NCBI GenBank assembly: GCA_021739635.1
Contig: JAIPBH010000002.1
Location: forward strand, 248,001 to 312,000
Length of the DNA stretch: 64,000 nt
From: Flavobacteriaceae bacterium
GTDB lineage: Bacteria > Bacteroidota > Bacteroidia > Flavobacteriales > Flavobacteriaceae
Reading direction: 5' to 3'
A program made the translations under genes and the position numbers. Positions 7,386-12,569 of the stretch are shown here, piece after piece; within the stretch, counting starts at the first letter, position 1; every line of letters begins with the position of its first letter. The notes beneath the pieces were generated by a model, which was not told where the DNA came from, made no database searches, and saw nothing but the letters and a program-made list of their open reading frames with translations.

Positions 7386-8735
7386 ATGAAGTTGTCGCTA
7401 TACTATAAACTCCTTATTTTCCATGTTGTTTTGGCAATTGGTGTTTATTTGTTTAGGCCTTTAGCACTTGCTTACTTTTTATTGATTACTGTTTTTTTTA
7501 GTTACAAGATTTTAATGGCATCTAAAGCCTATAAATCTTTTTATGTACTCATTGCTTGTGCTTATATAGTAGGATCTGAAGTGTTTTTAAGAATGAATGG
7601 CGGTACTTTTTTTTATGAAGCCAGTAAATATTTAGTTATTGTTTTTGTCCTGATAGGTTTATTTAGTAATAGCTTTTCTAATAAATCCTTAATTTATTTA
7701 GTTTATATCTTATTGTTGATTCCAGGTATTTTTGTAGCTGTTTCTGATATGGGTTTTGAAACGAACATAAGAAAAGCCATTGCTTTTAATTTGAGTGGCC
7801 CTATATGTTTGGGAATTACTGCAGTTTTTTGCTATAAGCGTTCTATAAGTTTTAACCAAATAAAGATTATCTTATTAGCTCTATTATTGCCCTTGATAAG
7901 TATGACAGTATATTTGTTTTTATACACTCCCAATTTGCAAGAAGTTATTACTGGAACAGAGTCTAATTTTACAACGTCAGGAGGTTTTGGACCTAATCAG
8001 GTAGCGACTGTTTTAGGGATTGGTATATTTGTTTTAGCAACACGATTTTTTATTTCTAAAGAGGTTTTTATTCATAGATTATTTGATTTAGCCTTGTTAG
8101 GATTTTTAAGTTTTAGAGCCCTTATTACATTTAGTAGAGGTGGAGTTCTTACTGCCATTATAATGATTTTAATGTTTTTGGGGTTGTATTATTTAAAGGT
8201 TAATTTAAAAACCAAACTCCGGATTAAATTGTCGCTTTTAGTTTTTTTAATTATGATATTTTTTACTTTGTTGTATAGTTCCATAAAAACCAATGGGTTT
8301 ATTGAAAAACGCTATGCCAATCAAGATGCTGCAGGTCGAGTAAAAGAAGATGTTACTACTGGGCGTACTGATTTAGTTGCTTTTGAGTTTAATGAGTTTA
8401 TTGATAATCCTTTTTTAGGGATAGGAGTAGGTAAAGCGAAAGAAGTACGCTTAAATGAAACTGGGGTTGAAGCCGCTTCACATAACGAAATGAGCCGAAT
8501 TATAGCTGAACATGGGTTGTTAGGTGTTTTTGCCTTTTTAATTTTACTTATTACGCCTTTGATTTTTAGACTAAAAAATAAAACAAACTTGTTTTTTTAT
8601 TCTTTTTATATTTTTTGGTTGCTCACTATCAATCATTCTGCCATGCGAATTGCTGCTCCTGCCTTTATTTATGGATTATGCTTACTTAATATTACTTATG
8701 AAACTAGAAACAAGAAACTAGAAACAAGAAACTAG
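7386..8735 (+). CDS. O-antigen polymerase/ligase family membrane protein (Wzy/WaaL-like)
   Basis: A 449-residue integral membrane protein with about ten hydrophobic helices spread over residues 5-435. The largest extramembrane loop is around 295-370. It has an FSRGG motif near 255 and HNEMSRIIAEHGLLGV near 365-380, both usual in the Wzy_C/O-antigen ligase family. These enzymes either polymerise lipid-linked repeat units or ligate the polymer to its carrier in the periplasm. Sequence alone does not separate the two. The last eleven residues (ETRNKKLETRN) and the TAG stop are encoded by a 7-bp tandem repeat that begins at 8700, so the native C-terminus appears overwritten. Confidence 0.85.
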   Translation: MKLSLYYKLLIFHVVLAIGVYLFRPLALAYFLLITVFFSYKILMASKAYKSFYVLIACAYIVGSEVFLRMNGGTFFYEASKYLVIVFVLIGLFSNSFSNKSLIYLVYILLLIPGIFVAVSDMGFETNIRKAIAFNLSGPICLGITAVFCYKRSISFNQIKIILLALLLPLISMTVYLFLYTPNLQEVITGTESNFTTSGGFGPNQVATVLGIGIFVLATRFFISKEVFIHRLFDLALLGFLSFRALITFSRGGVLTAIIMILMFLGLYYLKVNLKTKLRIKLSLLVFLIMIFFTLLYSSIKTNGFIEKRYANQDAAGRVKEDVTTGRTDLVAFEFNEFIDNPFLGIGVGKAKEVRLNETGVEAASHNEMSRIIAEHGLLGVFAFLILLITPLIFRLKNKTNLFFYSFYIFWLLTINHSAMRIAAPAFIYGLCLLNITYETRNKKLETRN

Positions 8736-8792
8736 AAACAAGAAAATGAGAAGATAGAAAAGAGAAACTAGAAACAAGAAACAAGAAACTAG
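8700..8792. repeat. 7-bp tandem repeat array, consensus GAAACWA
   Basis: Six perfect heptamers alternate GAAACTA and GAAACAA from 8700 to 8741. A degenerate purine-rich stretch follows (8742-8763), then four more perfect units (8764-8791). Read as a 14-bp unit, the first block has three identical copies. The array enters the end of the upstream membrane-protein gene, supplies its stop at 8733-8735, and fills nearly the whole gap to the next gene at 8808. It shows no spacer structure and no dyad, so it is neither CRISPR nor a terminator. Confidence 0.95.
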
Positions 8793-8807
8793 ATAAGCGC
8801 TTGAGCA

Positions 8808-9818
8808 ATGAAAAATCTTTTATACATAGGAAACCAATTAAAGCCTCATCATGGAACTGTGACCACTATAGATGTTCTTGGGCCATTATTAGAAAAAGAA
8901 GGATATCAGTTGGTCTATGCTTCGTCTTTTAAAAATAAGGTTTTAAGATTTTTTCATATGATTTGTACAGTGTTTAAAAACAGAAAAAAAGCAGATTATG
9001 TTTTCATTGACACCTACAGCACCTTAAATTTTTACTACGCTTTTTTTGTGAGCCAGGTATGTAGAATTTTAAATTTAAAGTACATTCCTATTTTGCATGG
9101 CGGAAACCTTCCTAACAGATTAACGCAAAGCCCCATTTTAAGCAAGCTTATTTTTAAAAATGCTTATATAAATGTGTCACCTTCTAACTATATAAAGTCA
9201 GCATTTGAAAAGCTAGGATATTCTAATTTGATTGGTATCTCTAATTCCATAGAAATTAAGGACTATCCATTTCAAGTTAAAGATTTTAATACTGTTAGAT
9301 TACTTTGGGTTCGCTCTTTTTCCCAAATTTATAATCCTTTATTAGCAGTTAAAATTTTAAAGGCTTTATTAGACGAAAATATTTACGCAACGCTTTGTAT
9401 GGTCGGTCCCGATAAAGATGGTTCTTTAAACCAAACAAAAACTTACGCAAAAGAAATTGGTGTAGAAGTACTATTTACTGGAAAACTATCTAAAAAAGAC
9501 TGGATTAAATTATCAAAAGATTATAATATTTTTATAAACACAACCAATTTTGATAATATGCCGGTAAGTGTTATAGAAGCAATGGCTTTGGGTTTTCCCG
9601 TAGCGTCAACAGATGTTGGCGGTATGCCATTTTTAATAAAAGATGGTTTAAATGGCATGTTAGTCCATCCTAATAATGTTTCGGCTTTTGTTTCTGTTAT
9701 AAAAAAATTAATATTGAACACAGAAAAGACAACCCAAATGGCTTTTAATGCAAGGAAACAAGCCGAAATGTATGATTGGAATACAATCAAACATCAATGG
9801 TTTTCATTATTAAATTAA
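8808..9818 (+). CDS. glycosyltransferase family 4
   Basis: A 336-residue GT-B glycosyltransferase. The N-terminus GNQLKPHHGTVTTIDVLGPLL gives an acceptor-domain turn, and ILHGGNLPNRL near 95-105 is a conserved loop. The donor half contains LLWVRSFSQIYNPLLA, MVGPDKDG and NTTNFDNMPVSVIEAMALG, then VASTDVGGMPFLI. The first glutamate of the usual E-x7-E motif is aspartate here (D-NMPVSVI-E), a recurring variant in this subgroup as far as I recall. It is isolated from the upstream cluster by the heptamer array and followed after 59 bases by the initiating transferase. Confidence 0.87.
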   Translation: MKNLLYIGNQLKPHHGTVTTIDVLGPLLEKEGYQLVYASSFKNKVLRFFHMICTVFKNRKKADYVFIDTYSTLNFYYAFFVSQVCRILNLKYIPILHGGNLPNRLTQSPILSKLIFKNAYINVSPSNYIKSAFEKLGYSNLIGISNSIEIKDYPFQVKDFNTVRLLWVRSFSQIYNPLLAVKILKALLDENIYATLCMVGPDKDGSLNQTKTYAKEIGVEVLFTGKLSKKDWIKLSKDYNIFINTTNFDNMPVSVIEAMALGFPVASTDVGGMPFLIKDGLNGMLVHPNNVSAFVSVIKKLILNTEKTTQMAFNARKQAEMYDWNTIKHQWFSLLN

Positions 9819-11272: not shown

Positions 11273-11335
11273 AGTGATCAGTAATCAGTGATCAGTAATC
11301 AGTGTTCAGTAGTCAGTGTTAAGTGATCAGTCATT
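11273..11335. repeat. 7-bp tandem repeat array, consensus AGTGATC
   Basis: Nine contiguous heptamers follow the stop codon of the glycosylphosphotransferase gene by three bases. In order they are AGTGATC, AGTAATC, AGTGATC, AGTAATC, AGTGTTC, AGTAGTC, AGTGTTA, AGTGATC and AGTCATT. The first four alternate two variants exactly, as the array at 8700 does; later units are degraded. No open frame or promoter is seen inside. Confidence 0.93.
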
Positions 11336-11338
11336 AAG

Positions 11339-11387
11339 TTTCAAGTTTCAAGTTTCAAGTTTCAAGTTTTAAGTTTTAAGTTTTAGG
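11339..11387. repeat. 7-bp tandem repeat array, TTTCAAG/TTTTAAG
   Basis: Four perfect TTTCAAG units are followed by two TTTTAAG units and one TTTTAGG. On the opposite strand this reads as GAAACTT repeats, the same GAAACNN family as the array at 8700-8792. The array overlaps the 3' end of the minus-strand DUF4105 gene. Its sixth unit supplies that gene's TAA stop (11376-11378) and the seventh encodes the last residues. Confidence 0.94.
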
Positions 11388-12569
11388 GTTTATAGATACT
11401 TTATTTTTAAAGAAGTATATTAAAAATACGTATCTTATACCTAAAGCTATTAAAAAAGGGATTAATCCTAAGGCAAAAACTTGAACACCAATTATCCAAT
11501 GCAATGTTAATAAGCTTAATAATATTACCAAAAACTTTAAGTATTTTATAAATCTGTTACTTACGTTGTTTTTAAAAAGCTGTTTAATGACCAGTAGATT
11601 TAAAGCACAAGCCCATAACAAGTTATAATTTTGATGAGTCGCTTTATGATCTGTCGCAAACCAAAGCAATAAAATAAAAACCCCGATAAGTCCTGTTAAA
11701 AAGAATAACATAATGTCTAGTGATTTTGTTCTTTGGTTACTTTTATAATCTTTATAAGTTATAAAAAGAATCAACAAACCAATAATTCCAAAAATGAACA
11801 ACGGACTTAAAAAGAAATAGTCTGATTTAGGTGTAGCATTTTCTTTATAAACGGTTTTTCTTTCTTTTACTAAAGGCGAATTTGTACCTTTAAAAGTAGC
11901 CACGTCAAAAAAAGTATGAATATAAGATGGTAAAAACATATGCTCTTTTGGCGTTGCTTTTTGATCTATTACAGAACCAAGAGCCACATCAATACCTAAG
12001 CTTCCCCAAGAATTACGATTGAGTTTGTTTTGTATTAATGTTCTAAATGTTTGAGCTTTAAAATCTTTAGGGTTGTTATATTTTATAGCATTATCAGTAG
12101 CTATATCTAGTACTTCTTTAATTTTAGTGGCACAATTGTCATAAAAAAAGTCATATAAATAATTCCTGTTTTCTGGCTTATAATTGTTTACCAAATAGTC
12201 GTAAAGCTTTTGTTTTTGTTGCTGATTTAAATTTAATTCTTGTTCTTCAACTGTTCTATTTTGCCATTGATAAAATTTTATAAAATCATAGTAGTTAACG
12301 GCTCCAATGGAATAATTTAATTTACCTCTCGCAAAATTTAAGTAAAAGTTTGGCGCTTCAAAATCAAACCTGCCATAATCAAAACAAACATCTAAATTAC
12401 TACTTGAATCTTTTATTCGTATAGCATTATGTCCAAAGGCATCGTTTAATGAATTGCCAGGACCAATGGTAAGGATACCAATTTCAGAATCAGGAGATAA
12501 CTTATAATTCTGAGAAAAAGCAAAGTTTAAACAGAAAAGGAATACTGTATAAAGTAAATTTTTTAACAT
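11376..12569 (-). CDS. DUF4105 domain membrane protein
   Basis: A 397-residue protein with a signal sequence (about 1-19, ending FAFSQ). A DUF4105 domain runs over roughly 25-200: ILTIGPGNSLNDAFGHNAIR, then YDFFYDNCATKIKEVLD with a conserved cysteine. Five hydrophobic helices fill 255-392. The family has no firmly known reaction; the soluble part should face the periplasm. It starts 13 bases after the PorV/PorQ-like gene and is probably co-transcribed with it. The final residues NPKT and the stop lie in a heptamer array, so the C-terminus may have been altered by repeat expansion. Confidence 0.8.
   Translation of the reverse strand: MLKNLLYTVFLFCLNFAFSQNYKLSPDSEIGILTIGPGNSLNDAFGHNAIRIKDSSSNLDVCFDYGRFDFEAPNFYLNFARGKLNYSIGAVNYYDFIKFYQWQNRTVEEQELNLNQQQKQKLYDYLVNNYKPENRNYLYDFFYDNCATKIKEVLDIATDNAIKYNNPKDFKAQTFRTLIQNKLNRNSWGSLGIDVALGSVIDQKATPKEHMFLPSYIHTFFDVATFKGTNSPLVKERKTVYKENATPKSDYFFLSPLFIFGIIGLLILFITYKDYKSNQRTKSLDIMLFFLTGLIGVFILLLWFATDHKATHQNYNLLWACALNLLVIKQLFKNNVSNRFIKYLKFLVILLSLLTLHWIIGVQVFALGLIPFLIALGIRYVFLIYFFKNKVSINPKT

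Follow-up and report, generated by a model that had tools for sequence, protein, structure and literature searches.

Tandem heptamers have been described from several groups of bacteria. In the text available, MacGregor (2015, PMC4679880) describes TAACTGA direct repeats in Beggiatoaceae, Cyanobacteria and five Bacteroidetes; forward repeats of this unit supply stops in all three frames, for which reason they are found at the ends of ORFs, and close relatives of the Gramella and Aequorivita strains show no obvious repeats in the same gene neighbourhood. The available part of a second report (PMC4692102) presents the GGGAATC heptameric repeats of Xanthomonas, which are heterogeneous, and the GGGGA(T/C)T repeats of Nostoc. 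Both papers cite the work of Mrazek et al. (2007) on long simple sequence repeats, which noted an excess of heptanucleotides, and the idea of Mrazek that 7 nt relates to the contact length of the polymerase.

The array described here lies in a window of 64,000 nucleotides (the whole stretch of DNA that was analysed) from a marine Flavobacteriaceae bacterium, genome G000, between a Wzy_C family gene and a glycosyltransferase gene. A comparison of sequences makes it fairly likely that this array is a lineage-specific heptanucleotide microsatellite, grown by replication slippage, which now lies between two genes whose counterparts overlap in many relatives.

Organization of the array

The features at this junction are the following:

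7386-8735, forward strand: Wzy_C (O-antigen ligase/polymerase) family gene, assigned by translation and by Pfam PF04932 (E 4.9e-16)
8700-8741, forward strand: array block 1, six perfect GAAACWA units with alternating CTA and CAA ends, encoding ETRNKKLETRN and the stop TAG at 8733-8735
8742-8763, forward strand: degenerate middle of the array, 22 nt, which shifts the phase by 1 nt between the six-unit and four-unit blocks
8764-8793, forward strand: array block 2, four perfect units (CTA, CAA, CAA, CTA), then GA
8808-9818, forward strand: glycosyltransferase gene (Glycos_transf_1), downstream of the array, with its start MKNLLYIGN intact

The sequence-only reading that preceded this analysis had described ten perfect heptamers in a single run. 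The array is real, and all ten perfect GAAACWA units were located in the window, with starts at 8700, 8707, 8714, 8721, 8728, 8735, 8764, 8771, 8778 and 8785, but they do not form one run, as the degenerate middle splits six from four. The pairing of units into 14-bp steps holds in the same partial way: the TAGs at 8705, 8719 and 8733 fall in three different frames and the third is the stop of the Wzy_C gene, but the strict CTA/CAA alternation is confined to block 1 and breaks in block 2. The window contains 8 occurrences of the 14-mer GAAACWAGAAACWA, the two-unit pattern, where chance predicts 0.02; the genome has 11 copies, these 8 and 3 more at a single other place (C11:47717-47744). TRF places the repeat at 8700-8793 with a period of 7/14.

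The Wzy_C gene has 449 codons and enters the array at codon 439; its final 11 codons (439-449, the ETRNKKLETRN tail) and its stop lie inside. Stops occur in every frame across the array because the period is not divisible by 3 and a stop lies within the unit, and both the translation and the stop positions bear out the earlier claim that the array supplies the tail and ends every frame. The further claim that loss or gain of units changes the tail and never abolishes the stop is also supported. In nine simulated changes, in which units 1-6 were deleted one at a time or one, two or three GAAACAA units were inserted after unit 2, all nine frames terminate; the core of the protein is unaltered and the tail ranges from 4 to 18 residues. 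Genome G004, described below, provides a natural case. What does not stand is the view of this stop property as special: it follows from the arithmetic of the period, about half of random heptamers qualify, and it has been published for TAACTGA.

A gap of 14 nt separates the end of the array from the downstream glycosyltransferase start, which lies outside the array. No RNA structure was found for the GAAACWA array (z -0.55), no terminator-like site (a GC-rich hairpin followed by a T run) occurs at the array, and an Rfam search of the array gave no match. A promoter reading of the array was set aside, with one promoter-like match against 1.6 in shuffles.

The Wzy-glycosyltransferase junction in relatives

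At an E threshold of 1e-10, the Wzy protein has matches in five of the seven genomes of the genus, Yeosuana in the delimitation of the genome collection (the window's own G000, and G001, G002, G003 and G004); G005 and G006 gave none at E 1e-10. Identity to the window's protein is 75-82% in G001, G002 and G004 and 45% in G003, a partial match, and proteins of some other genera are no more distant than that of G004 (G139, 83%; G116, 81%). In the family search, 190 of 397 genomes matched Wzy at E 1e-60 or better, and the best 30 of the 190 were taken as loci. The comparison covers 34 distinct junctions (L012-L015, L017-L043, L050, L052 and L053); L016, which is partial, was left out, as were L044-L049, L051 and L054, whose junctions are identical to ones already counted.

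Across these 34 loci, conservation of Wzy reaches an LNITYE-like segment (such as LCLLNITYE), and the tails beyond it are of several unrelated kinds. In 15 loci (14 by pattern search, with L052 added by eye), the Wzy frame overlaps the next gene and the tail, for example KPPLHRKQIIKKR, is the MKNLLYIGN start read out of frame. Another 15 have other array-free tails, mostly with a spacer; among them are 4-nt overlaps at L034 and L040, and L041, which showed no glycosyltransferase start. GAAACWA arrays occupy the junction in two of the 34 (the window and G004), and AGA-type heptamer arrays in two others, L021 (AGACAAT) and L050 (AGACCGA). The GAAACWA array is absent from the junction in the congeners G001, Yeosuana aromativorans, and G002, Yeosuana marina; the latter has a spacer without an array.

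In the comparison that the sequence-only reading had called for, the tail ETRNKKLETRN is encoded at none of the 30 array-free junctions. The same reading held that the array has overwritten the C-terminus of the protein, and this stands in that the array now forms the tail. Loss of a functional C-terminus is not supported because the tails past the LNITYE-like segment are of unrelated kinds, and in 15 of the 34 loci the tail is itself the neighbour's start out of frame.

In a tree of the 34 Wzy proteins, well-supported branches require at least seven changes of overlap state, so this gene border is labile. In the window's lineage the likely direction is from overlap to separation; the counter-points to overlap first are the array-free spacer of Yeosuana marina and the similar right flank ahead of the ATG in G004, L021 and L050.

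G004, a Flavobacteriaceae metagenome-assembled genome, carries eight GAAACWA units against the ten perfect ones of the window, and they end CTA, CAA, CAA, CAA, CAA, CTA, CTA, CTA, an order that differs from the window's. The coding part of its Wzy tail, ETRNKKQETRNKKLETRN, is 21 bp (7 residues) longer than the window's despite the fewer units. Because the Wzy tree does not join G000 and G004 as sisters though the array is common to both, shared descent of the array is not certain, and the two genomes may have it by descent, transfer or parallel origin.

Heptamer arrays across the genome and its relatives

The sample of G000, 817,712 bases comprising the window and 40 stretches, contains 10 heptamer-array loci. 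Repeat rows in this sample number 12 at period 7, 10 at its multiple 14 and at most two at each of the remaining periods between 4 and 15, so that tandem 7-bp units exceed both chance and other periods. Set against mechanically called ORFs of at least 80 aa, which make up 90% of the sample and miss shorter genes, two loci cross the 3' end of a gene, one lies wholly within an ORF and seven lie outside ORFs. At an equal threshold, G004 has one array in 237,178 bases, G002 one in 200,000 and G003 none in 192,667, and none was found in 200,000 bases each of G001, G127, G067 and G131. The units vary among the G000 arrays (GAAACWA, GTTAAAA, AATTGAC, ACTGANN), and ACTGATT-type units are among them. 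Two of these arrays lie further along the window:

11273-11335, forward strand: second heptamer array (AGTNATC type), beginning 4 nt past the stop of the Bac_transf gene
11336-11392, reverse strand: third heptamer array (GAAACTT on the minus strand), covering the stop, 11376-11378, of the converging Lnb-type gene

The gap between the converging genes (11273-11392) is filled by the AGTNATC and then the AAGTTTC array, and the latter gives the Lnb-type gene its stop; two of the three window arrays sit between converging genes. Among 10 junctions compared at this site, the window's included, the two named Yeosuana species have no array and Marixanthotalea marina (L047) has a TTGGCTA array.

Three other array sites of G000 were read across the genus, and the arrays are long in G000 and short, degenerate or absent elsewhere. 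The gene names rplT, rpmI, ffh, folD and der are presumptive, being assigned from the sequences. Upstream of the rplT-like gene (L069:3226-3271), an AGTTAAA-unit array is present in G000 alone among six genomes read; in five congeners without the array the spacer is otherwise conserved, with a short, AT-rich and degenerate stretch in G004. Of the six genomes read after der, only G000 has a long array; G003 shows a short run of a different heptamer there, and the sequence in G004 is degenerate. The ffh-folD interval holds an array in G000 and a shorter form of it in G004; the remaining five of the seven genomes lack one. Copy number differs between related species both here (G000 and G004) and at the Wzy junction (the window and G004). 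Such comparisons indicate that arrays are gained, altered and lost within short spans of evolution, often with another unit.

The proposal that arrays hug stop codons as a rule was set aside, the sites being few: the rplT array lies about 50 nt from the upstream stop, and the L059 array lies 8 nt from a start. G004 has a TGGTGAG heptamer array of 189 bp, or about 27 units, at L182:5016-5204. At L060:12551-12682 and onwards, two different heptamer arrays adjoin, and the second extends further as degenerate units around an almost invariant ACT core.

Heptamers also occur within an open frame. The reading frame at L135:982-4314, on the minus strand, encodes a GatB-AspS fusion of 1110 residues whose linker holds a stop-free heptamer array. 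This linker array, at L065:19825-19853, has the unit GGTCTTG. Yeosuana marina (G002) has the same GatB-AspS linker with a different heptamer array, and the G004 linker has no array. In a period-7 test of five linkers, that of G008 not among them, the signal is strong in G000 and G002, weak in G023 (0.006) and not present in G012 (0.27) or G004 (0.88). That the array made a new gatB-aspS fusion was rejected, as six of 40 genomes searched, G000 included, match a fusion-spanning query in one open frame.

Origin and persistence of the array

The array at the Wzy junction is probably slippage-born, harmless and nearly neutral. Its seed was perhaps a terminal GAAA(C) of the Wzy gene, which slippage would then have expanded; loops of 7 bases largely escape mismatch repair. 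Growth would be tolerated because the site consists of a dispensable tail and a spacer. The array could persist where the tail past the last conserved segment appears to tolerate change, the glycosyltransferase retains its own start, and a stop-bearing 7-bp unit would end the frame at any copy number. No function of the array itself is needed. The passage from overlap to spacer may change the translational coupling of the Wzy and glycosyltransferase genes.

One counter-point is that several arrays show variation restricted to some positions, with a 3-nt core constant in each 7 nt, which plain drift does not predict. In a constant-core test of 8 chosen stretches, the best-3 p value is below 0.05 in four of the eight and 1.0 at L090; the variants are not independent, and duplicated variants make the test too lenient, so that its outcome is suggestive only. 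It is conceivable, if rather doubtful, that Flavobacteriaceae arrays generally have a constant 3-nt core (AGA, AGT, AAT, ACT) with up to four variable bases per step, and that they recur at the same junctions and remodel gene architecture. If true, the wzy-glycosyltransferase border would have passed from overlap to separation with a stop-bearing unit and gatB-aspS would have an open-frame linker with a stop-free one, and a specific 7-nt-stepped slippage or re-priming process would be indicated.

The retained core could also mark where a protein binds the RNA or DNA (one of the S1, Csp or Csr type, which the available text of PMC4679880 proposes for TAACTGA) and regulates the downstream gene. 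The position of the array end, 14 nt upstream of the glycosyltransferase start, and its unstructured RNA agree with such a role, but the unit differs among arrays of one genome, the long arrays at three other sites are missing from most congeners and two of the three window arrays lie between converging genes. Regulation of this kind is therefore improbable.

A further reading takes the array as a selected all-frame stop, a fail-safe translation terminator that shields the glycosyltransferase gene from frameshifted or read-through ribosomes. The G000 array does stop all three frames and terminates after every simulated change, and 14 of 19 listed array units bear a stop on the strand as written. 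This last figure stands against a null of 0.50, but the 19 units were hand-picked and are partly redundant, and for this reason no stop enrichment among array units is claimed. The property is cheap because a stop on a given strand is present in about half of all random AT-rich heptamers (0.50; the window's 7-mers give 0.48). Moreover, the stop-free arrays AGACCGA (L050) and GGTCTTG (gatB-aspS linker) exist, and relatives get by with overlapping genes and no array. Selection for an all-frame stop is not supported, and we regard it as very unlikely.

Surface-polysaccharide genes are classical phase-variable genes, and G000 and G004 differ in how many units they have and in what order. A contingency locus, at which changes in copy number would phase-vary the polysaccharide polymerase or the gene after it, is nonetheless highly improbable here, as none of the nine simulated changes would switch the gene on or off, only the tail being altered, and the downstream gene keeps a start of its own that the array does not reach.

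Comparison with known systems

The slippage-grown microsatellite favoured here shares most with the TAACTGA repeats as they appear in the available text of PMC4679880. Both are 7-bp direct repeats, mostly intergenic, some lying over the stop of the upstream gene, with stops in three frames, and the window array itself has three-frame stops and overlaps the stop of the gene upstream. Unlike those repeats, the unit here is GAAACWA, the genome's arrays have many units, and the array-free junction is a two-gene overlap in many relatives. The heptamers of Xanthomonas and Nostoc, in the portion of PMC4692102 drawn on, are also intergenic and heterogeneous, with constant and variable positions, and vary extensively in length between close species; they are G-rich potential quadruplex formers, whereas the arrays here are mostly AT-rich and the RNA of the window array is unstructured. 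As in the repeats of Mrazek et al. (2007; cited in PMC4679880 and PMC4692102), period 7 exceeds other periods, although the richest genomes named there, according to these citations, belong to other phyla. The tandem repeats of Borg elements, in the accessible part of PMC9879509, resemble these arrays in rapid evolution, recent formation and independent origins; Borgs are archaeal extrachromosomal elements, unlike the setting of the window array.

Among the literature matches listed, no title or abstract opening describes an array that replaces an overlap. This kind of array is already described in bacteria, and the comparative record here is unusually clear: one homologous border shows overlapping genes, plain spacers and unrelated heptamer arrays, a case of a microsatellite altering a gene border. 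Annotators are warned that such C-terminal tails are encoded by the repeat and are not conserved. The long-noted, unexplained excess of heptamers in bacteria becomes testable in a genus with cultured members.
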